A DNA stretch of 64,000 bases from contig JAUSLF010000070.1 in the NCBI GenBank assembly GCA_030646695.1, positions 1 to 64,000 on the forward strand. The letters run 5' to 3'. Of this stretch, positions 21,340 through 35,968 are shown in pieces. Both the position numbers and the translations under genes were made by a program. The stretch is from Nitrosomonadaceae bacterium (GTDB lineage: Bacteria; Pseudomonadota; Gammaproteobacteria; Burkholderiales; Nitrosomonadaceae). The notes below the pieces were generated by a model, which saw nothing but the letters and a program-made list of their open reading frames with translations, was not told where the DNA came from and did not search any database. Within the stretch, counting starts at the first letter, position 1; each line of letters opens with the position of its first letter.

Positions 21340-22014
21340 TCATCCCATCACTGCTAAATCTGCTTCGGCTTGCGCTACCTGCTGAGCTGCGGCCCGAATC
21401 ATCGGCAGCATCTGAGTACGTTGCTGCAATATCTGTCCGCGTACTTGATTCAACTGTTCCGGACCAGCCAGAAGGTTCCCCTCAATCTGTTTTCGCTTCT
21501 GACCAAAACGCTGATTGACGGCTGCAATATCAGCAGGGTCAACATTTCTGGACGGATCGAACACGAACCGTCGTTCCAATCCATTTCGCCAATCGACCAG
21601 TTCACGTGTGAGCTTCTGCCCGAATCCATTGATGTTCATGACTTTATTCCAAGTGACATCGGCAGCCGTTTCTATGCCGAACGAGACAAGAGCAGCTTTT
21701 CGCGTAGGGCCGACACCGGAAATATTGTGGTCTTCCAGAAAGAATTTATCGAGAAACTTGTGAAGCTGAATGTTGCGAAGGTTCTGCTGCAACTTTTGTT
21801 TCTCTTGCGCAAGCTGATTGGCCAAGCTTTCATATTCTGTTCGCAAACTCGACAATTCCTTGAGTTTTGCTTGGAACTTACCGTCACTGGCTTCAAGATT
21901 CCAACGTTGCTGCACGGTTTCCATGTTTCGTCGTGCGGCATCGCGGGCATCCCGTCGCGCACTCCGCTCTGCATTCACGCGTGAAATATGCCGCATGAAA
22001 ACTTCAAACTTCAC
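21340..22014 (-). CDS. coiled-coil helix-hairpin-helix protein, kinase-less relative of the tail of kinase-HhH proteins
   Basis: The 224-residue protein starts with GTG at 22014, overlapping the GvpJ stop (GTGA), so it is translationally coupled. Residues 10-90 are charged helix likely to form a coiled coil (LKELSSLRTEYESLANQLAQ). Residues 95-150 carry two helix-hairpin-helix motifs: ISGVGPTRKAALVSFGIET and VMNINGFGQKLTRELVDWRN. A second helical stretch ends the protein. From memory, this layout matches the C-terminal tail of bacterial proteins that join a Ser/Thr kinase to HhH domains (YegI/COG4248 type, often near TerY-like vWA proteins), but no kinase is encoded here. Its function in gas vesicle formation is unknown; DNA binding is not certain, since HhH motifs also serve protein contacts. 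Confidence 0.7.
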   Translation of the reverse strand: MKFEVFMRHISRVNAERSARRDARDAARRNMETVQQRWNLEASDGKFQAKLKELSSLRTEYESLANQLAQEKQKLQQNLRNIQLHKFLDKFFLEDHNISGVGPTRKAALVSFGIETAADVTWNKVMNINGFGQKLTRELVDWRNGLERRFVFDPSRNVDPADIAAVNQRFGQKRKQIEGNLLAGPEQLNQVRGQILQQRTQMLPMIRAAAQQVAQAEADLAVMG

Positions 22015-22376
22015 TTGGCCGGATCAATAGTCTCATGCCCTCGGGCCGGCGCGGCCAGGGGTTGGGGCGGCTTCGCCGCAGCCTCCAGCCGCGCGATTCG
22101 CGCACTCAGGCCCTCAACCTGGGACTTCTCCGGTGCGGCGCCAGGACTGAGATAGGAGCTCGTTGTCCACCAGTCAATACCCATCTCGCGGGCCTTGTCC
22201 ACGGAGCAGATCAGCAAACGAATCTGGATGGTGAGCAGCTCGATATCCACCAGTTTGATCTTGATGTCGCCAGCGATCACCAAGCCCTTGTCCAGGATGC
22301 GTTCCAGAACATCGGCCAGGGTCGAGGAGTCGGTTGCATGCGTGATATTTTTTTGGTTTTTTTGTGGGGTGTTCAT
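22011..22376 (-). CDS. gvpJ: gas vesicle protein GvpJ (GvpA/J family)
   Basis: The 121-residue protein has a GvpA-type core at about residues 17-70 (TLADVLERILDKGLVIAGDI, then KLVDIELLTIQIRLLICSVD) plus a C-terminal extension with a short coiled coil (EKSQVEGLSARIARLEAA) and a Pro/Ala linker. The extension separates it from the shell protein GvpA and fits GvpJ, a minor protein that helps nucleate the vesicle. The ATG at 22376 has AGGAG at 8-9 bases. It follows gvpK and overlaps the next gene by 4 bases. Confidence 0.88.
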   Translation of the reverse strand: MNTPQKNQKNITHATDSSTLADVLERILDKGLVIAGDIKIKLVDIELLTIQIRLLICSVDKAREMGIDWWTTSSYLSPGAAPEKSQVEGLSARIARLEAAAKPPQPLAAPARGHETIDPAK

Positions 22377-22415: not shown

Positions 22416-22742
22416 TTACAGCAGCTTGCCAAGCGGGCCAAGATCCAGATTCAGATCCTCATCGGTCAGACCGTAGGCTTCTTTCAGCCACTTCATTTGT
22501 TCATTCAACTCGAGGAAGGTCAAACCCAAACGTTCAATCTCATCGTCCGTCAGTGATCCGCCTTCAATGCGGCACAGCGCCTGTTTTTCCAGCAACTGGC
22601 GCAGCAACTCCACAATGGTCAAGACCAGTTGCCCCAAGCCCTTCTTGACACTCTCCGGGTCCAGCGCAATTCGTGGGGACCGGGTTGCTCCCCCTGTTTC
22701 CTCCGCTTCATCGGGGAACAGGAAGGCAAGGTCGTTTTTCAT
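22416..22742 (-). CDS. gvpK: gas vesicle protein GvpK
   Basis: The 108-residue acidic protein has the GvpK pattern: IALDPESVKKGLGQLVLTIV, ELLRQLLEKQALCRIEGGSL, and TDDEIERLGLTFLELNEQM. GvpK is an essential minor protein in known gvp clusters and is thought to act early in assembly. The ATG at 22742 has AGGAGAGG in front and overlaps the upstream GvpS-like gene by 4 bases. Confidence 0.92.
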   Translation of the reverse strand: MKNDLAFLFPDEAEETGGATRSPRIALDPESVKKGLGQLVLTIVELLRQLLEKQALCRIEGGSLTDDEIERLGLTFLELNEQMKWLKEAYGLTDEDLNLDLGPLGKLL

Positions 22743-23053
22743 AACCTCTCCTGCAGAGTTTCAGTCTGCGTGCTCGGGCTCACGCTGAGCTGGCTGGCAC
22801 GCGCCGTTTCAACCGAGGTCAGGAGCAGTTGTAGATTCAAATAGATCAGGTCGACACCGGCCACCGAGATCACAATGTCGCCCGTCGCTACCACCCCCGT
22901 ATTCAGCACCCGGTCGAGGAGTTCACACAGGGAAGAACTTCTCTGTTCAGAAAATTCCATCAGCCTCCCCTCTGCGTCCTCCCCCGAGTGCTCCGAGACC
23001 GGCACGACTCGAATTTTTTGCGCATCACGCACCGCTTGGCGTTTATGCGTCAA
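22739..23053 (-). CDS. gvpS: GvpA/J/S-family gas vesicle protein (GvpS-like)
   Basis: The GvpA-like core is SSLCELLDRVLNTGVVATGD then VISVAGVDLIYLNLQLLLTS, with the VAGVDLIYL pattern typical of GvpS/GvpJ rather than GvpA. Two starts are possible. A TTG at 23053 overlaps the previous stop (TTGA) and gives 104 residues with a charged N-terminal extension. An ATG at 22960 with the purine tract AGAGGGGAGG gives 73 residues. I kept the longer form because the operon is tightly packed, but the shorter is equally plausible. It is probably a minor shell or nucleation component. Confidence 0.82.
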   Translation of the reverse strand: MTHKRQAVRDAQKIRVVPVSEHSGEDAEGRLMEFSEQRSSSLCELLDRVLNTGVVATGDIVISVAGVDLIYLNLQLLLTSVETARASQLSVSPSTQTETLQERL

Positions 23054-23331
23054 TCTTCCAGGCGCATCAGTCGCGTGTACATGCTGCGCGCCATGTGCCG
23101 GGCGTTGTTACGCTCATAGCCTTCGGCCATTTCCAGCAACACCGCCTTGGCTGCGTCCGCCTGGGGCGTCCCCTGGTAGTCCTCGGCGAGCGTCCAGAAC
23201 ATTTCTGTTGCCTGCCGAATGTTGCCCTCGCTCTGGTATTGCTGAGCCATGCGGAGCAGTCGCCCAACCAGCGAGTCCACCCTAGCAGCGGCGGCGACCG
23301 CATGATTGTCAGATTGAATTGCATTTTCCAT
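23050..23331 (-). CDS. small helical (TPR-like) protein of the gas vesicle operon
   Basis: The preferred start is the ATG at 23331, with GGAG nine bases upstream; a second ATG at 23346 lacks a ribosome binding site. The 93-residue product contains helices reading RLLRMAQQYQSEGNIRQATE, MFWTLAEDYQGTPQADAAKA and LEMAEGYERNNARHMARSMY. The alternation of aromatic and small residues resembles about two tetratricopeptide repeats, so a scaffold or adaptor role is likely. I do not recognise the family. It sits between the tandem ArsA-type ATPase and the GvpS-like gene and is coupled to the latter by a 4-base overlap. Confidence 0.7.
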   Translation of the reverse strand: MENAIQSDNHAVAAAARVDSLVGRLLRMAQQYQSEGNIRQATEMFWTLAEDYQGTPQADAAKAVLLEMAEGYERNNARHMARSMYTRLMRLED

Positions 23332-23385
23332 GATCGTATTCTCCATTAAGTTAAAGTCGTTTTGCCTGCAACGCAGGTCGGGGTA

Positions 23386-25467
23386 TCAAGCGCCATTTAA
23401 AACTGACACGGGTGAATCTGAGGTCCTATAAAGAGCCCGGCCCAAGGCCTGCAGCCGGTCCAGCCCGCGCGGCTCTTGCTGGCGAAACACCTGTGCCATG
23501 TGGCGGCCAGCAAACGCTGCGTGGTACTGACCCAGCACACTATCCTCTTGGCGTCGCAATACAGAACAGGTCGGACAGGCTGAGGCCGGTGTGACCATGT
23601 TCACAAACAAGAGGGGCACCGCAAGCCCGAGCCGCTCACAGGCCGCCACCAGGTCTCTGGTTTCCGCATACGCCATCTCGGTGGGAATCGTCACCGCCAC
23701 CAGGGCCGCCTGCTTGACATCGATCAGCATGCGCCGAAACGCTTTCACCCGTTTCGAGAGCGTCACCATCATCTGCGAGATCCTGGGCAGCCAGAACACA
23801 TCCCGGTATTTCAAGAACAGCGCGAAGAAAGTCTTGAGCCATTGCTCAATCAGCTCGGGCATTTCCAGGAAACGCAGCAGATGGCCGGTCGGCGCCGTGT
23901 CGAGCACAAACAGGTCATAGCGACCCTGCTCCATCATGTCAACGATCCGGGTCAGTGCCAATACTTCATCCAGGCCGGGTGGTGCCAGGTCCAGTATCCG
24001 CTCCATGACCTCCCGGTCGAACGCCAGATTCATCCCTGCCGGTCCGCTGACGCGCTCAAAGACTCCCGTCAACTCATCGGCATAGTTCTGCTTCAAGTGC
24101 GCATACTCAGCCTGAGCGTCCAGCTCGATCACGCTCAGCCCCGGTGCCACCCGGACTTCCTGCGAACCGATCTCACGGCCCAGGCAGGCCGCCAGCGAAT
24201 GCGCCGGGTCGATGGAAAAGAGCAGTATCTCCTTGCCGCTGCGCTCTTGCGCCAAGCGCAGTGCCGAGGCGCAGGCCAAGGTGGTCTTGCCGACCCCGCC
24301 TTTGCCCGCGAACAACAGCAGCTTGATGGAGGCTGCGGGAAGGGGTGCCGGATTGCTGACGAGTGACTGTTGGCCGCTGAGTACTGAGGGCTGCATGGCG
24401 GAGCGCCTCCGACCATCGTTCATCGTTGCACGTTCAAGCGTTCCTGCTGCCAAGGGCCGTGCCTGCTCCCACACCGTCAACAAGCGCTGCGTTCCCCGCA
24501 TTTCCTCAAGGAACAGCGGAAGCCCCCATAAGGTGTAGCTTGAAAACACCCGCGTGAGCTCGTCGATCGCCACATTCTGGCGCGAGTTCCATTCAGCGCA
24601 GACCGGACAGTCCGCTGGCGCAGGATGCAAGCGGTTGACGACCACCTCGCGCACCGGCAGATCAATCCGTTCCAGCTCGCTGAGCAGCATCCGTGTCACA
24701 TAAATACTCAAGGCTTCGGCCAGCATGACGGGCACGAAGCGGCATTGTTCAGGCGACTGCAGCAGCGCGCCCAGGTGCGTCAGGTCGGCCACAGTCTGTT
24801 CCAGATAGAGGTCAACTTCATCTTTTTGATAACTGCCCCGGTACAGCCGCGCCAGGTAGCGGTGCTTGGCCAGCATCGTATCCAAGGTGGCGACCCACTG
24901 CCGCATGATGGCCGGAAGACCGAGGAGTCGCAGAGTATGCCCGGCCGGCGCGGTGTCCACCACAATGCAGGCATGGCGATTCTCTTTGACCCAGGCGGCA
25001 ATCTCAAGCAAAGCCATGATTTCATCCAGACCGGGCATAGAGAGGTCCAGCAGATGCGTCAGGTCAGCCGCATCCAAAAATGTCCCACGCAGGACAATGG
25101 TGCGCAGATGCGCTTCGTGTCGCGCCTTGAACCGAAGCAGACTTTCTTGGGGATCCAGCTCACGCAGGGTCAGATTCTCAAGCGGCGCAGAGTCGGCAAA
25201 ACAATCAGCCAGCGAATGGGCCGGGTCGGTCGAGACCAGCAGAAAGGAGCGGGTCGGATGCTGGCGGGCCAAGTACAGAGCGGCGGCGGCAGCACAGGTG
25301 GTCTTGCCGACCCCGCCTTTGCCACCGAAGAGCAGCAGGCGAAGCTTCTCTGCCTGTAAAAATTCCGGGTGTTCCGGTGCGCCCGCTTTCATTTGGTTTG
25401 CTTTCAAATGCTCAGGGCGCAGGGCAAAATGGAAAAATGGCTTAGGACGTGCGGCGACCTGTGTCAT
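23386..25467 (-). CDS. tandem ArsA/Get3-type ATPase in a gas vesicle cluster
   Basis: With the ATG at 25467 (overlapping gvpG by 26 bases) the protein has 693 residues and two similar halves. Half 1 has the deviant Walker A GGKGGVGKTT near residue 50, then STDPAHSLAD and DTAPAGHTLRLL. Half 2 has AGKGGVGKTT near 386, SIDPAHSLAA and DTAPTGHLLRFL. Each half has one CxxC pair (CPVC near 285, CPTC near 628), the zinc/dimer motif of Get3/TRC40, and no arsenite-resistance neighbours are present. Get3 proteins shield hydrophobic helices of tail-anchored proteins. By analogy this one could chaperone GvpA-type subunits; that is inference. The fused two-half form looks like ArsA, while the CxxC pairs look like Get3. 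Confidence 0.85.
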   Translation of the reverse strand: MTQVAARPKPFFHFALRPEHLKANQMKAGAPEHPEFLQAEKLRLLLFGGKGGVGKTTCAAAAALYLARQHPTRSFLLVSTDPAHSLADCFADSAPLENLTLRELDPQESLLRFKARHEAHLRTIVLRGTFLDAADLTHLLDLSMPGLDEIMALLEIAAWVKENRHACIVVDTAPAGHTLRLLGLPAIMRQWVATLDTMLAKHRYLARLYRGSYQKDEVDLYLEQTVADLTHLGALLQSPEQCRFVPVMLAEALSIYVTRMLLSELERIDLPVREVVVNRLHPAPADCPVCAEWNSRQNVAIDELTRVFSSYTLWGLPLFLEEMRGTQRLLTVWEQARPLAAGTLERATMNDGRRRSAMQPSVLSGQQSLVSNPAPLPAASIKLLLFAGKGGVGKTTLACASALRLAQERSGKEILLFSIDPAHSLAACLGREIGSQEVRVAPGLSVIELDAQAEYAHLKQNYADELTGVFERVSGPAGMNLAFDREVMERILDLAPPGLDEVLALTRIVDMMEQGRYDLFVLDTAPTGHLLRFLEMPELIEQWLKTFFALFLKYRDVFWLPRISQMMVTLSKRVKAFRRMLIDVKQAALVAVTIPTEMAYAETRDLVAACERLGLAVPLLFVNMVTPASACPTCSVLRRQEDSVLGQYHAAFAGRHMAQVFRQQEPRGLDRLQALGRALYRTSDSPVSVLNGA

Positions 25468-25741
25468 CCGCATCGACCTCGTCTTCATCGGATTCATTGT
25501 CAGATTCAGCGTCAGCTGCCTGATTGCGCAGCTCGATGACGTCCAGGCGATCAAGGAGCTGCTTCTCCTCAGCCTCAAATTCTTCCTCTGTAATTTTCCC
25601 GGTCTCCAGGCGCATATACAGCTCGCTGAGTGATTGCGTGATAGCTTCCGATTCTCCAGCCTTCTCCTTCTGAACGGCATCATTGATTTCCTTAGCGATC
25701 CACAGCAGCGGTGTGGTCAACAACTTGTCAAGGAGAAACAT
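25442..25741 (-). CDS. gvpG: gas vesicle protein GvpG
   Basis: The 99-residue protein starts MFLLDKLLTTPLLWIAKEIN, typical of GvpG, followed by a charged coiled coil (LYMRLETGKITEEEFEAEEK, then QLLDRLDVIE) and a very acidic C-terminal tail (SDNESDEDEVDADD). GvpG is an assembly protein usually placed next to GvpF/L, as here (gvpF ends 9 bases upstream). Confidence 0.9.
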   Translation of the reverse strand: MFLLDKLLTTPLLWIAKEINDAVQKEKAGESEAITQSLSELYMRLETGKITEEEFEAEEKQLLDRLDVIELRNQAADAESDNESDEDEVDADDTGRRTS

Positions 25742-25749
25742 AAAAAGTA

Positions 25750-26511
25750 TCAGTCCTCTTCGGGATCCAAGTTGACATCGACAAAATTATGCGGCGCCCA
25801 AGGCCCGTTGAAATCGAAGCCGAAGTTGTTGTCGAACAGCTTGGCCGCCTCAAAAACGCCGTCCTCGAAGCGCTTCTGGGCATCCAGCTCAACCAGACAG
25901 GCCAGATGCATCACTTCCCCCTCCCGAGGCGGATTCTGCTTGATGTCGACACAGAGTGGCCCCAGTACCTGCATGGCTGCTTCGGTGTAGCGTTCACGCT
26001 CCCGGGTCAACAAGCGATCGAATAGACGCCCCAGCTCGATTTGATCCATCTGCGAAGGGCCATGCTGTTTACCCATCGCCTGGTCGCGCAAGGCCGCGAG
26101 CTCCGGGGAACTGTTCACAATGTACTCAAAGATATTCGGCACATCCAAAGTAACACGCAGCCCCATCTCGACTTTCCCGCGTACCAGGTTCAGTTCCTCG
26201 ACCAAGGTCTCACTGTTCTTCTTCAGGATATCCCGGACCGCCTTGGCACTGCCGGCCAGCGTCCCGAACGCCGCCGGCAGGATGGTGCTGTCTTCCATCA
26301 AGCGTTTGACGACGGCATTGTGCGCCGCCAAATTTTTACGCTCGGGCCGGATCCGTTTGTCCATCAGGTCGCTCACCACCGCCGCGAGGGAGCCATGGGA
26401 GAGGGTATAGACAGCGCCGCCATTGAGGCCGATCGGCCCATAGGTCTGCTCGCCCGCTTCATCGACAACCGCGTAGATGTATTTCCCCATCAGCATCGTG
26501 TTCATGCTCAT
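25750..26511 (-). CDS. gvpF: gas vesicle protein GvpF (GvpF/L family)
   Basis: The ATG at 26511 overlaps the gvpO stop (ATGA) and gives 253 residues; the upstream extension of the frame lies inside gvpO. The N-terminal ferredoxin-like part has KYIYAVVDEAGEQTYGPIGL; the middle is helical (AAHNAVVKRLMEDSTILPAA with FGTL); the C-terminus ends FNGPWAPHNFVDV, the diagnostic GvpF/L closing motif. GvpF binds GvpA before assembly in studied systems. This is one of three GvpF/L-type proteins in the cluster. Confidence 0.92.
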   Translation of the reverse strand: MSMNTMLMGKYIYAVVDEAGEQTYGPIGLNGGAVYTLSHGSLAAVVSDLMDKRIRPERKNLAAHNAVVKRLMEDSTILPAAFGTLAGSAKAVRDILKKNSETLVEELNLVRGKVEMGLRVTLDVPNIFEYIVNSSPELAALRDQAMGKQHGPSQMDQIELGRLFDRLLTRERERYTEAAMQVLGPLCVDIKQNPPREGEVMHLACLVELDAQKRFEDGVFEAAKLFDNNFGFDFNGPWAPHNFVDVNLDPEED

Positions 26512-26953: not shown

Positions 26954-27322
26954 TCAGACGATACCCTGGCCCTTGCAGGGGGTGCAGTGAAACACCCCGT
27001 CTTTTCCGCTTCCCAGGCATTTGGCGCAAGTCGTCGCCTCCTTGCGCACAGACACCACACCTACCCCTTTGCAGGCCAGGCAGCTCAGGCTGGCTTTTTC
27101 TCGTCCTGTGCCGCCGCATTTCAGGCAATTCACCACGGGCGAAGTGACCGCAACCTTGCCGCTAGCGCTGCAGACCGGGCAGCGGCTTGCGGAGCGATTC
27201 GTTGAGTCCACCCCGCTGCCACGGCAGTAGCCACAGGGTACCGAACTCACAAATAGCTTGTTGCGGGACGACCTGCCTTTGATTTGCCCGAATCTGGCCA
27301 GAACGGCATGGGCATAAGTCAT
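26954..27322 (-). CDS. stand-alone DnaJ-type zinc-finger protein 1
   Basis: The start is the ATG at 27322 (MTYAHAVLARFGQIKG), giving 122 residues. Six CxxC motifs follow in order, each leading into a glycine: CGYCRGSG, CPVCSASG, CLKCGGTG, CLACKGVG, CAKCLGSG and CTPCKGQG. Type I DnaJ has four such motifs forming two zinc sites that hold unfolded client protein. Six would form up to three sites. There is no J-domain and no C-terminal substrate domain. It is a paralogue of the protein at 28981-29325. With the J-domain of the GvpF/L fusion and the dnaK gene it may reconstitute an Hsp40 in pieces. Confidence 0.82.
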   Translation of the reverse strand: MTYAHAVLARFGQIKGRSSRNKLFVSSVPCGYCRGSGVDSTNRSASRCPVCSASGKVAVTSPVVNCLKCGGTGREKASLSCLACKGVGVVSVRKEATTCAKCLGSGKDGVFHCTPCKGQGIV

Positions 27323-27326
27323 TTTT

Positions 27327-27584
27327 CTACCACGCGCTCGCCTGTTGTTCTCGCGCCGAGGGCGGAAGTACCCGCAATGGGCCGGCCGCGCGCTCAAAAT
27401 GTTCACGCCACTGCTCATCGAGCCAGAGACGCCGAGCCTCTCGCGCCATCAACGCCTGTTCTTCACGAGCGATTCGTTCTTTGTCAATGTGTTCCATAGG
27501 CAAGCCTGTGGCATGCGGGCACGCGCGGAAACTCTGTACGTTTCGGCTGGTACGTATCTGTTTCAAACTTTTTATTGTCAGCAT
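27327..27584 (-). CDS. small conserved-position protein of unknown function
   Basis: The ATG at 27584 has GGAGG six bases upstream, giving 85 residues beginning MLTIKSLKQIRTSRNVQSFR. The longer open frame upstream overlaps the previous gene in another frame and is not used. The middle is a charged helix (HIDKERIAREEQALMAREAR then RLWLDEQWREHFERAA) with an arginine-rich face. I do not recognise it. Its place between the 107-residue helical protein and the zinc-finger gene, with almost no spacing, makes it part of the operon. Confidence 0.65.
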   Translation of the reverse strand: MLTIKSLKQIRTSRNVQSFRACPHATGLPMEHIDKERIAREEQALMAREARRLWLDEQWREHFERAAGPLRVLPPSAREQQASAW

Positions 27585-27934: not shown

Positions 27935-28984
27935 CTACTTTGATTTAACGGAACTAACGCCAGCAGCCTGCTTGCCGGGTTTGCGGCCCGCCCTGCAAAC
28001 CTTCTGAATCACCTCACCCAGCGTGTCGGCCACGACTGACTGGCCCTCACGGGTGACCTTGGCCGTCTCCGCACTCAGCACATCCCGGGTGACCCACTGA
28101 AAGACCGGGTCAGCCCAGCGGGCATGGCCGCCACGGATAGCCAGCACCCGGGCAATCGCGATACAGGCCCGAATGGTCGGCCGGTGTTTGTTGACGCCAC
28201 CGCTGCGCAACTCCCTCACCACATCCACAATGGTTTCGGCGTCAGCAGGGGCGATGCCAGACTTCGCCATGGTGATGCGGATCTCTGTGTCCCGATCATA
28301 GTGACCCATCTTGAGCGTGATCAAGCGGTCCATCAGGGCGTCCTGGGTCTTGTGGGTGCCCGCGTACTCCTCCGGGTTCGAGGTAAAGATGGCGCGGAAT
28401 TCCGGATGCACCTCCAAATAGCCTTCGCCGGAACTGCGTAGCTTGGGCAGATTGAGAATTTTTTCCGACAGAATGCTCAACAGCGCGTTATTCGCCTCGG
28501 GGCGCGAGCGGGTGAACTCGTCGTAAATCAGGGTATCCCCGTTCTGGCAGGCGGTGGTGAGACGGTTGTCCACCCACAAGGTCTTTGTTTCCTCTTCGGT
28601 CTTCAGCACAGAATGGATGAAGTTGTCGATCAGTTTATGCTTTCGAACGCCGGATTCACGACCAATCAGGTCGGAACTACCGAACTCATCGTCTCCATGG
28701 ATCAGGCTGACCGGACGACCCAGCTTTGCGGCGACGTGGAACGCCAAGGTGGTCTTCCCGGTTCCTGCCGGGCCGGAAAAGTGAACTGCGTAGCCGGCCT
28801 CCAGATAGGCCAAGGCGCGCTCAGTCAACTCCTGGACGTAGGGCGTAAAGACGAACTCATCGCTGGGCTCGGGCAAGATGTTATCGTCATTGGACGTCAT
28901 CCTGACGACCTCTGCCGGTTGCACTTCTAAGTTGGTTTTATTCATGGCTGTGTAATCTCTTTTGAATTGTTTATTCGTCATCAT
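27935..28984 (-). CDS. gvpN: gas vesicle protein GvpN (AAA+ ATPase, MoxR type)
   Basis: The 349-residue ATPase has Walker A SGPAGTGKTTLAFHVA, Walker B TLIYDEFTRSRPEANN, and the sensor region AIFTSNPEEYAGTHKTQDAL, all typical of GvpN. GvpN raises vesicle yield and size in known systems. The first ATG at 28984 overlaps the zinc-finger gene (ATGA) but has no ribosome binding site; an ATG at 28945 (MNKTNLEVQPAEVVRM) has AAGAGA at about 12 bases and may be the real start, leaving 336 residues. Confidence 0.93.
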   Translation of the reverse strand: MMTNKQFKRDYTAMNKTNLEVQPAEVVRMTSNDDNILPEPSDEFVFTPYVQELTERALAYLEAGYAVHFSGPAGTGKTTLAFHVAAKLGRPVSLIHGDDEFGSSDLIGRESGVRKHKLIDNFIHSVLKTEEETKTLWVDNRLTTACQNGDTLIYDEFTRSRPEANNALLSILSEKILNLPKLRSSGEGYLEVHPEFRAIFTSNPEEYAGTHKTQDALMDRLITLKMGHYDRDTEIRITMAKSGIAPADAETIVDVVRELRSGGVNKHRPTIRACIAIARVLAIRGGHARWADPVFQWVTRDVLSAETAKVTREGQSVVADTLGEVIQKVCRAGRKPGKQAAGVSSVKSK

Positions 28985-29325
28985 TGCGCAGCGACCCGGC
29001 CCCGGCCACGGCAGGTCAGACAGTCCATCGCCGGGGCGGAGCTGTCATCGCCCGTGCCTTGGCAGTCCGGGCAGACGATGGTTGGCCCAACTGCGGCGGG
29101 AACCCTGCCCTTGCCACGGCAGACCGTGCAGGTCAGCCGTTTGATGGCCCCGCTGCCCTGACAGTGCGCGCAAGCCACATACGGCACTGGCACCTGGACC
29201 ACGCCTTTGCCGAGACAAACCGGGCAGTCCGATAAGCGGGACATGATTCCGAACGGGTCTTTGCCTTTGCCGCCACAAAAAATGCAGGGCAAAGGCGCCA
29301 TCGTCACTCCAGTCTCATTTTTCAT
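28981..29325 (-). CDS. stand-alone DnaJ-type zinc-finger protein 2
   Basis: The ATG at 29325 has GGAGG five bases upstream, giving 114 residues. Again six CxxC-G motifs are present: CIFCGGKG, CPVCLGKG, CAHCQGSG, CTVCRGKG, CPDCQGTG and CLTCRGRG, with valine/proline-rich spacers. The motifs are closer to the DnaJ consensus CxxCxGxG than in the paralogue at 26954. It lacks any J-domain. It lies just upstream of gvpN with a 4-base overlap to gvpN's first ATG. Likely a client-binding or thiol/zinc chaperone for vesicle proteins. Confidence 0.85.
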   Translation of the reverse strand: MKNETGVTMAPLPCIFCGGKGKDPFGIMSRLSDCPVCLGKGVVQVPVPYVACAHCQGSGAIKRLTCTVCRGKGRVPAAVGPTIVCPDCQGTGDDSSAPAMDCLTCRGRGRVAAQ

Positions 29326-29362
29326 CACGACCTCCAGACGTACATGTCTTTACCAAGAACAC

Positions 29363-29992
29363 CTAACGGCCACGAACCTTTTTCGCTGGCTTTTTCGTTG
29401 CCTTCACGGGGGCCGCTTTGGCTGTTGTTTTTGCTTTTACCAGCGCGTTTTTTGCGGCATCCTTTATGCGGACAGCCGCCGCTGCTGCTTTTTTAAGAGC
29501 GTCTTTTGCCGCTTCCTTGATGCTGGCAGCCGCTGCTTCCTTGGCATGAGCCGCTGCTGCGGCGGCCTCCTTGATGCGGGCAGCCTCCGCTACTTCCTTG
29601 GCATGAGCCGCTGCTGCGGCGGCTTCCTTGATGCGGGCAGCCTCCGCTACTTCCTTGGCGCGAGCTGCTGCGGCGGCGGCCTCCTTGATGCGGGCAGCCT
29701 CCGCCACTTCCTTGGCATGAGCCGCTGCTGCGGCGGCTTCCTTGATGCGGGCAGCCTCCGCTACTTCCTTGGCGCGAGCTGCTGCGGCGGCGGCCTCCTT
29801 GATGCGGGCAGCCTTCGCTTGTTCGGCACGGGTCGGACCAAACCAGGCCGCATGCACCGCCCGATTTTCATCCATCATTTTTTTTCTGAGGCCGGCAACG
29901 GTTCGTGTCAGGTTCGCAACAAATTCGATACGGCCACGGTGCCCTGTTTGGATCTTCTGGCGGAGTCGCCCCATATCGTCAGTTCTGCTCAT
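29363..29992 (-). CDS. alanine-rich repeat protein, candidate GvpC-like shell protein
   Basis: The 209-residue protein has three parts: an N-terminal domain shared with the gene upstream (MSRTDDMGRLRQKIQTGHRG, then EFVANLTRT and AAWFGPTRAE); five 19-residue helical repeats of the type AARIKEAAAAAARAKEVAE; and a lysine/alanine/proline-rich tail resembling histone H1 (KAAPVKATKKPAKK). Amphipathic helical repeats are the hallmark of GvpC, which wraps the vesicle outside, but the unit here is 19 residues, not the 33 of cyanobacterial GvpC, and I see no sequence match. DNA-binding or granule-coating (phasin-like) roles are alternatives. GAGGGG precedes the ATG at about nine bases. Confidence 0.72.
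   Translation of the reverse strand: MSRTDDMGRLRQKIQTGHRGRIEFVANLTRTVAGLRKKMMDENRAVHAAWFGPTRAEQAKAARIKEAAAAAARAKEVAEAARIKEAAAAAAHAKEVAEAARIKEAAAAAARAKEVAEAARIKEAAAAAAHAKEVAEAARIKEAAAAAAHAKEAAAASIKEAAKDALKKAAAAAVRIKDAAKNALVKAKTTAKAAPVKATKKPAKKVRGR
29537..29821. repeat. five tandem 57-bp repeats inside the Ala-rich gene
   Basis: A 57-bp unit starts at 29537, 29594, 29651, 29708 and 29765. Copies 3 and 5 share the variant GCGCGAGCTGC, while copies 1, 2 and 4 share GCATGAGCCGC, so copies 2-3 and 4-5 look like a duplicated 114-bp dimer. The unit is a multiple of three, so copy-number change alters protein length without breaking the frame. Confidence 0.92.
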
Positions 29993-30654: not shown

Positions 30655-30873
30655 TTAAGCCGGTGCAGCAGCGCTGGCTGTCAGGCCAATTGCTTCTGCG
30701 TACTTAAGGTAAGTTTCAACCGATGCGACTACGACCCGTGCTTCGATAGACAACAACTCAATACCAACCAGCGACACCTTGACCCAAGCGTCAATGACGA
30801 CACCCTTGTCCAAAATGCGGTCAACTACTTCGGCCAAGCTTGATGAATCGGTCGATTTTTGTACGTTTGCCAT
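30655..30873 (-). CDS. gvpA: gas vesicle major shell protein GvpA
   Basis: The 72-residue protein is Gvp[55 protein letters not shown]. The helix - beta-hairpin - helix core that stacks into the gas-permeable ribs is complete, and the [13 protein letters not shown] and SVETYL motifs are intact. The ATG at 30873 has AGGAG nine bases upstream. The leader contains a sigma54-type promoter and a short hairpin. It is the first gene of the downstream operon, as expected for the most abundant product. Confidence 0.97.
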
Positions 30874-34028: not shown

Positions 34029-34436
34029 TCAGTGTGAAACTTTCTCTGTGGATAATGCCGCATGGATGGCTTTCAGTAGCTCGCCATGGTGAACCGGTTT
34101 GGTGACAAAGGCGGAGATGAGGCCGGTGCGCAGGTTGTCCTGCACGATGCTATCGTCCTTGTAAAAATAGCCGGAGACCAGAATCATCGGCGCGGCGCAG
34201 GATGTTTCGGCGCGAATCCGTCGGGCCAATTCCACCCCTTCAATGTCTGCCAGCTTGGCATCCAGCAGGATGAGGCGACATGTCGGCGTCGACTCCTTGA
34301 ACCACCGCAATGCCTCCGCCCCGCTCTCCATCGTCACCACCGTGAACCCATTCCTCCGCAACAGTGTCTCCAAGGCCCAACAAACGTCGGGTTCGTCGTC
34401 CACCACCAGCACCGTTACCGACAGGCTTGTCAGCAT
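34029..34436 (-). CDS. single-domain response regulator
   Basis: The 135-residue protein is a lone CheY-like receiver: acidic pair in VLVVDDEPDV, phospho-acceptor Asp in LILLDAKLADIEG, the Ser switch region MILVSGYF, and the Lys in FVTKPV. There is no output domain, so it acts by protein contact or as a phosphate relay. It overlaps the histidine kinase gene by one base, indicating partnership. Confidence 0.92.
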   Translation of the reverse strand: MLTSLSVTVLVVDDEPDVCWALETLLRRNGFTVVTMESGAEALRWFKESTPTCRLILLDAKLADIEGVELARRIRAETSCAAPMILVSGYFYKDDSIVQDNLRTGLISAFVTKPVHHGELLKAIHAALSTEKVSH

Positions 34437-35968
34437 CAGGGTTTACCGGTCAATCTCGGGGGCGAGGAGAAGCGGACGGTAAACGTGCTGCCCTGTCCCT
34501 CCACGCTGTCCACTTCAATCACACCGCCGTGCTGCTTCACGATCGTGTAACAGATGGACAGCCCTAAGCCGGTACCTTTGCCGACCGGCTGGGTGGTAAA
34601 GAAGGGGTCGAACACTCGGCCCATGTTGGCGTGTGGAATGCCGCAGCCGGTATCGCCCACCTGCACCACCGCTTCGGCAGCCTCGTGCCGGACCGCAATC
34701 TTGATTTGCCCGCCAGCGGGCATCGCCTGGTAGGCGTTCAGGATCAAATTCATGATCACCTGCTGCAGCAGGCTGGCGTTTCCAGAAATCGGCACAAATG
34801 GGGTTTGATAATCTTCAAAAATCTTGATCTTCTGAATCTTGGCCTGGGGCGTCAGCAGGCTGACAGTATCCTGCACCAAGGTGACGAGATTCATCGCTTC
34901 CACTTGGTCACTGGGTGCGGGTCGGGCGAAGCGCAGCAGGTTCTCGATAATTCCCGATGAGCGCTGGATGCCGTCGATGATCTTGCTGACGCACTCTTTC
35001 TGGAACGCCGCATCGTGCGACGAGTCCAGCAGAAATTGCGCGGCGGAGAAACTAACCGACAGCGGATTGCGCAACTCGTGCGCGATGCCCCCCGCCATCA
35101 CCCCCAAGGCGGCGAGTTTTTCGCTCTGGAAGATGTGTTGCTCAAAGGCCCGTCGCTCGGACAGGTCGCGTCCGACCGCGACCACGCCGCTCACCTTGTC
35201 GGCATCGTCACGAATCGGGGAACAGGACCAATCGACCGGGACCAGCTCGCCGGAACGCGCCACCAGGCTCAGTTCCTGAAGCTGCACTGCGCCGCCCTTG
35301 ACCAGCCGGTCAATGATCGCCGTCATGGCATCCCGCTGAGCGGGATCGCACAGTTCGGCCAGCAGCCGTCCCCGCACCGCGTCGACCCGAAAGCCCGAGA
35401 TGCGCTCGGCGGCCGCGTTCCAACTGATGATGCGGCCCTCGGCGTCGGTTGATATCACCAGATCGTTGGCGCTTTCGATCACGCTCGCCAGGTGGCGTTC
35501 GGCCATCCGGGCCTTCTCGCTCAATTGCACTTTCTCGGTGATATCGTCCATCACCAGCATGGCGTGCTCCACCACATTGCCTGACTTCACCGGAATCACG
35601 GTGTAGTAATAAATGCGGGTCGGGACGCCCGGCGCCCGGTAGGTCATTTGGGCACCGGGCAAGGGCTGGCCGGTGTCGAAGACACGGCGGATTTTGACTT
35701 CCAGTTGCGTAAACTCCAGGATCGCGTCGGGGAAGACCTCGCTGATGCGCCCCCCGACGGTGGTCCCCTCACTGCGTCGCGCCTTCACCAGGAAGTTTCG
35801 GTTGGCCGACACCACCCGCAAGGTCCGATCAATTAACAGGAGGGAAAACGGGATGTTCCCCAGCAGCATGTGGTAGAGCCTTTCGTACCAGCCTTCTGAC
35901 GGCACAGTCGACGCAGACGTCGTGCTCATCTGCGCAGAAGTGGGTGCTGCATCGTCTGACTTTTTCAT
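34436..35968 (-). CDS. PAS-domain histidine kinase (NtrB-like)
   Basis: The 510-residue protein appears soluble (no membrane segment seen). It has two PAS domains (about 30-140 and 155-275), a HisKA dimerisation domain with the phospho-His in GGIAHELRNPLSV, and a HATPase domain with the N-box QQVIMNLILNAYQAM, G1 GDTGCGIP and G2 GKGTGLGLSICYTIV. The H-box type is that of kinases that pair with NtrC-like regulators. It probably senses a cytoplasmic signal through PAS and controls the cluster's activator and the adjacent receiver. It overlaps the upstream GvpF/L gene by 4 bases. Confidence 0.93.
   Translation of the reverse strand: MKKSDDAAPTSAQMSTTSASTVPSEGWYERLYHMLLGNIPFSLLLIDRTLRVVSANRNFLVKARRSEGTTVGGRISEVFPDAILEFTQLEVKIRRVFDTGQPLPGAQMTYRAPGVPTRIYYYTVIPVKSGNVVEHAMLVMDDITEKVQLSEKARMAERHLASVIESANDLVISTDAEGRIISWNAAAERISGFRVDAVRGRLLAELCDPAQRDAMTAIIDRLVKGGAVQLQELSLVARSGELVPVDWSCSPIRDDADKVSGVVAVGRDLSERRAFEQHIFQSEKLAALGVMAGGIAHELRNPLSVSFSAAQFLLDSSHDAAFQKECVSKIIDGIQRSSGIIENLLRFARPAPSDQVEAMNLVTLVQDTVSLLTPQAKIQKIKIFEDYQTPFVPISGNASLLQQVIMNLILNAYQAMPAGGQIKIAVRHEAAEAVVQVGDTGCGIPHANMGRVFDPFFTTQPVGKGTGLGLSICYTIVKQHGGVIEVDSVEGQGSTFTVRFSSPPRLTGKP

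Follow-up and report, generated by a model that had tools for sequence, protein, structure and literature searches.

Within a gas-vesicle (gvp) cluster, an uncultured betaproteobacterium has a gene for a double ATPase of the ArsA/Get3 family, which raises the question of whether such a gene encodes an arsenite pump or a component of the vesicle machinery itself. The cluster lies in a stretch of DNA of 64,000 nucleotides that was analyzed as a whole and is hereafter called the window (Table 1). The encoded protein is probably built like two fused copies of Get3, a chaperone of membrane proteins, and not like an arsenite pump; as judged from sequence comparison, its probable role is to shield the strongly hydrophobic shell proteins of the vesicle until they are assembled.

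The open reading frame that stops at 23386 matches PF02374 (ArsA_ATPase) in two stretches (4e-114) and scores 376 bits with TIGR00345 (GET3_arsA_TRC40), for which the cut-off is 135; weak matches to ParA/MinD profiles were also found. Each half carries the GKGGVGKT, DPAHS and DTAP motifs, both nucleotide sites being intact in sequence, and the hallmarks of Get3/TRC40 proteins (a deviant Walker A, the switch I DPAH and the switch II DTAPTGH) are present, in agreement with a preliminary description of two complete ATPase halves in one chain. The frame extends without a stop as far as an ATG at 25467, which lies in gvpG and is the start given in the preliminary description. This start was dropped in favor of the ATG at 25392, because that codon and its immediately preceding bases are common to the window and the relative L002, and because the aligned relatives begin at the equivalent position and have no counterpart of the 25 extra residues. 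Thus, the protein likely comprises 668 residues, the longer reading being possible. With this start, gvpG and the ATPase gene are 47 nt apart, so that the coupling to gvpG claimed in the preliminary description is unlikely to take the form of an overlap. The two genes are separated by only 2 nt in the relative L004, and the reading that they belong to the same operon therefore still stands for the window; a common transcript is the simple reading.

Table 1. Coordinates of the double ATPase, its two halves and the neighboring gas-vesicle genes in the window.
Feature	Position	Strand	Evidence and remarks
gvpA shell protein	30655..30873	(-)	PF00741; farther upstream
gvpN AAA+ ATPase	27935..28984	(-)	TIGR02640 over cut-off; farther upstream
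gvpF/L	25750..26508	(-)	PF06386
gvpG	25442..25741	(-)	PF05120; directly upstream of ATPase
Tandem ArsA/Get3-family ATPase, 668 aa	23386..25392	(-)	conserved start ATG at 25392
N-terminal ATPase half	24433..25392	(-)	P-loop, DPAHS, DTAP, CPVC (residues 262-265)
C-terminal ATPase half	23389..24363	(-)	P-loop, DPAHS, DTAP, hydrophobic helix WLKTFFALFLKYRDVFWL, CPTC (residues 606-609)
Small TPR-like protein	23050..23346	(-)	sub-threshold YbgF; conserved in L001-L004; directly downstream of ATPase
gvpJ/S-type gas vesicle protein	22739..23053	(-)	PF00741
gvpK	22416..22742	(-)	PF05121
gvpJ/A-type gas vesicle protein	22011..22376	(-)	PF00741

Several further genes belong to the cluster. An Hsp70 of its own (PF00012) adjoins a GvpF/L with a C-terminal DnaJ domain (PF06386 and PF00226; 31141-34019, minus strand), and the same pair occurs in the relative L002. 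The Hsp70 pair, the Get3-like ATPase and GvpN look like a chaperone set dedicated to the vesicle. Two small proteins (28981-29328 and 26954-27418, minus strand) contain DnaJ-type CxxCxGxG zinc-finger repeats. A histidine kinase of the PAS type, together with a response regulator (34029-35968, minus strand), probably regulates the cluster; in Methylocella tundrae, a comparable position is occupied by an ATP-binding protein and a response regulator. An alanine-rich protein without a Pfam match (29363-29992, minus strand), with repeats like AARIKEAAAAAAHAKEVAE, is possibly a GvpC-like outer shell protein.

Five relatives of the ATPase, 49-73% identical to it, were found in Chitinivibrionia, Nitrosomonadales, two beta proteobacteria and Hydrogenedentes. 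All five, as found in genome_contigs, lie in the same block, gvpF-gvpG-ATPase-(TPR)-gvpJ-gvpK-gvpJ; the small TPR-like gene was not found in the block of L005, and the start of the first half is lost in L001 through a frameshift or an assembly error. A distant tandem homolog is present in a plasmid gvp cluster of Nostoc sphaeroides, where a CDC48-like double AAA ATPase follows it (plasmid p4, L066:11743-13584). The ATPase is missing from seven sampled gvp clusters (plasmids of Spartinivicinus, Octadecabacter and Methylocella, and four Pseudomonadota genomes), and thus is optional and not generally needed. As the Methylocella cluster, which lacks the ATPase, contains a 55% identical copy of the small TPR-like protein, the latter is not tied to the ATPase. 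Among the sampled members of the family, order and phylum of the window, and of the phyla of L005 and L001, gvp-type members were found only in the window, L001 and L005; within the genus of the window, none turned up in the remaining genomes sampled, and the viral contigs searched yielded no relatives. L056, initially a candidate, is an ordinary ArsA in which the arsenite cysteines are present.

In Get3/TRC40 proteins, a CxxC motif forms the zinc site at the dimer interface, and the metalloid cysteines of ArsA are Cys113, Cys172 and Cys422. The CxxC pair reported earlier for each half was confirmed; both pairs are invariant in the close relatives and align with the Get3 zinc site. In the alignment, CxxC occurs in all six sampled rows of archaeal and fungal Get3 and is absent from all 24 ArsA halves, eight bacterial single-domain proteins and both halves of the Nostoc homolog. 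Conversely, the columns of Cys113 and Cys422 hold cysteine in 24/24 ArsA halves and glycine in 13/13 gvp halves, within PGLDE as in Get3, and no gvp half has cysteine in the column of Cys172.

The client groove of Get3 is formed by the helix equivalent to the hydrophobic helix of the gvp C half. Over the 38 residues of the helical stretch after DTAP, the hydrophobic fraction is 0.47-0.55 in gvp C halves and 0.39-0.47 in gvp N halves, as compared with 0.32-0.42 in Get3, 0.18-0.26 in ArsA N halves and 0.24-0.39 in ArsA C halves. Thus, in hydrophobicity the groove-equivalent helix of the gvp C half exceeds that of any Get3 or ArsA sampled, and lies at or above that of every other half compared. 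It is kept in all gvp C halves, that of Nostoc included, which counts as one evolutionary event and not as seven because these halves form one clade. The TRC40 insert adds 20-30 residues to the helical subdomain; the equivalent stretch after DTAP comprises 67 (N) and 60 (C) residues here, intermediate between Get3 (71-76) and ArsA (40-55).

For the phylogeny that the preliminary description had proposed, all tandem proteins were split into halves and combined with ArsA halves, bacterial single-domain relatives and haloarchaeal Get3-like proteins, the sequences of Get3 and of Chlamydomonas ArsA1 being read from PDB alignments. The gvp N halves form one clade (98/90) and the gvp C halves another (95/78); the two clades, with the Nostoc homolog within, are sisters (97/98), so that a single duplication predates the divergence of Nostoc from the window group. 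Groupings of gvp N with ArsA N (p 2.2e-4) and of gvp C with ArsA C (p 2.5e-5) were rejected by the AU test, and the tandem duplication of the gvp proteins is therefore separate from that of ArsA. A branch with 95/93 support puts the gvp clade on the side of Get3. Since the tree program warned that the long gvp branches meet, the halves were also placed one by one, and each still grouped with Get3 (94/94 and 95/91). An arrangement next to ArsA was not rejected by the AU test (p 0.16; 0.35 on the reduced set), and the tree hence supports the placement on the Get3 side with moderate strength.

In an AlphaFold2 model based on a six-sequence alignment (mean pLDDT 74, pTM 0.67), the two helical groove regions belong to the parts of lowest certainty. 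For the C half of the model, Get3 is the best match (Z 30.1, rmsd 2.8 Å over 274 residues), and the whole chain matches ArsA (Z about 25). Foldseek likewise ranked ArsA first for the whole chain, because it is ArsA that the PDB contains in fused form, and VIA-align ranked Get3 first, single Get3 chains aligning to the C half. The likeness to Get3/TRC40 extends over the P-loop, the DPAHS/DPAHN switch I, the aligned CxxC, PGxDE in place of the arsenite cysteine, a helical subdomain that is hydrophobic by sequence, the predicted fold and, with moderate support, the position in the tree. By contrast, Get3 forms homodimers from one-domain chains, carries a longer TRC40 insert and relies on a membrane receptor, whereas the gvp ATPase is a fused pair; no family match to a Get1/Get2-type receptor was found among the scanned proteins of the gvp cluster. 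With bacterial ArsA (E. coli R773 and L. ferriphilum; 1f48, 9nbl) it shares the fused two-half architecture and the overall fold, but in ArsA the arsenite cysteines are present and CxxC is absent (24/24 halves compared), and the duplication is not shared. A fused Get3-like identity, as the preliminary description had suggested, is therefore supported by the lost arsenite cysteines, the retained CxxC, the hydrophobic C-half helix and, with moderate statistical strength, the tree, with the amendment that CxxC is not universal, being absent from Nostoc.

A functional precedent is ArsA1 of Chlamydomonas reinhardtii (5zme/5zmf), a fused Get3-type targeting factor for tail-anchored proteins of the chloroplast, which is likewise a monomeric pseudodimer without arsenite cysteines and differs in having no CxxC, as reported (PMC5382584). 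It represents a separate duplication, because its own two halves pair in the tree (100/99). The association of two-domain ArsA homologs with gvp genes has been known since 2010, when proteins of about 640 aa (Clusters 4 and 6) were described in gvp operons that contain no ars genes, with the ArsA cysteines not conserved (Castillo and Saier, 2010; PMC2963123). As far as a comparison by description goes, these resemble the window protein in the two ATPase domains, the gvp operon and the loss of the ArsA cysteines, and the Nostoc ATPase, which groups with both gvp halves in the tree, is probably of the same kind. CxxC or an affinity to Get3 is not discussed in that study, whereas the window group has CxxC in both halves. 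A literature search found no paper combining "Get3" and "gas vesicle," and the paired Get3-type CxxC sites, the phylogeny of the halves and the hydrophobic C-half helix appear to be new here.

The reading that we favor, to which we would give an even chance, is that two Get3-type halves, joined in one chain as a pseudodimer, would serve gas-vesicle biogenesis by shielding and handing over shell proteins. In the mechanism that we infer, the helical subdomains would form a hydrophobic groove in the closed, ATP-bound state, with the C half dominant. The client shielded there would be the alpha1-beta1-beta2 segment of GvpA/GvpJ/GvpS, which is prone to aggregation, or the hydrophobic helix at the N terminus of GvpG; ATP hydrolysis would open the groove, so that the client could be passed to GvpF/GvpG or to the vesicle under construction. 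Between the halves, the two CxxC pairs would come together and hold one metal ion, probably zinc, which may keep the fused dimer rigid.

Such ATP-controlled shielding and hand-over of GvpA/GvpJ-type proteins is favored because of the Get3-like parts, the precedent of ArsA1, the tendency of GvpA, GvpJ and GvpM to aggregate if made without chaperones (PMC9501494), and the view that shell proteins are accompanied from synthesis at the ribosome to insertion into the vesicle (PMC11445434). A holdase of this kind depends on a pair of nucleotide sites, a pseudodimer bridged by a metal and a groove of hydrophobic character, and ArsA1 shows that a Get3-type protein can function in fused form (PMC5382584). 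On the other hand, the absence of the gene from seven gvp clusters, the lack of CxxC in Nostoc and a TRC40-type stretch shorter than that of Get3 count against a holdase. Also on this side of the balance, the shell proteins of gas vesicles do not belong to the tail-anchored membrane proteins, the scanned proteins of the cluster gave no match to a Get1/Get2-type receptor, and the AU test leaves the Get3-side placement short of significance. In addition, GvpF is already a candidate chaperone of GvpA (PMC9501494, PMC11445434). In sum, the family, the synteny, the duplication and the residues are shown, and the metal, the client and the hand-over are inferred.

A rather unlikely alternative is that the protein is a switch ATPase that powers another biogenic step, such as nucleation or the assembly and disassembly of a GvpF/GvpG/GvpL/GvpK complex, and holds no hydrophobic client. 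This would agree with its position directly after gvpG in all relatives and with the general proposal of Castillo and Saier (2010; PMC2963123) that these homologs energize vesicle biogenesis at a step distinct from GvpN. It leaves the hydrophobic groove helix, kept even in the C half of Nostoc, without explanation.

Oxidized Get3 is described as an ATP-independent general chaperone. It is conceivable, if improbable, that oxidation of the CxxC pairs likewise turns the gvp protein into a general chaperone guarding proteins of the cell or the vesicle, as the invariance of the four cysteines in the close relatives would allow and as an oxidation-induced holdase state, reported for the metazoan relative ASNA1 (PMC9803280), would illustrate. 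The strict linkage to gvp genes, however, argues for a vesicle-specific role, and the Nostoc homolog does without these cysteines. A still smaller probability attaches to positioning or partitioning of gas vesicles, as ParA/MinD-type relatives do with other bacterial cargo: the weak profile matches reflect membership in the same SIMIBI deviant-Walker-A superfamily, but both halves and the Get3 CxxC place the ATPase in the Get3/ArsA family. Finally, an arsenite-pump ArsA lying in the cluster by chance is extremely improbable, since the two-domain architecture and the whole-chain Foldseek matches that recall it are outweighed by the missing Cys113/172/422, the AU rejection of a shared duplication, a score of 179.5 bits against a cut-off of 650 for the ArsA equivalog TIGR04291, and the failure to find acr3, arsD or a second arsA in the 89%-complete genome of the window, which extends the earlier observation that no ars genes lie nearby.

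It is tempting to speculate, and we do so tentatively, that the fusion of two Get3-type halves took place in a bacterial lineage separately from the fusions behind ArsA and algal ArsA1, and that the resulting pseudodimer, bridged by zinc, is devoted to the delivery of shell proteins, in a Get3-like pathway that would end at a protein-walled gas compartment and not at a lipid membrane. Gas-vesicle biology has yet to explain what keeps the strongly hydrophobic GvpA-type proteins in solution until they are assembled; if the fused Get3-like reading is true, a Get3-type factor devoted to this task would provide the explanation in these clusters. The protein would also offer a simple model of two sites, with ATPase halves that can be mutated one at a time, and it would be useful for engineering vesicle yield. 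Get3-type chaperoning would then reach from membranes to a protein-walled organelle.
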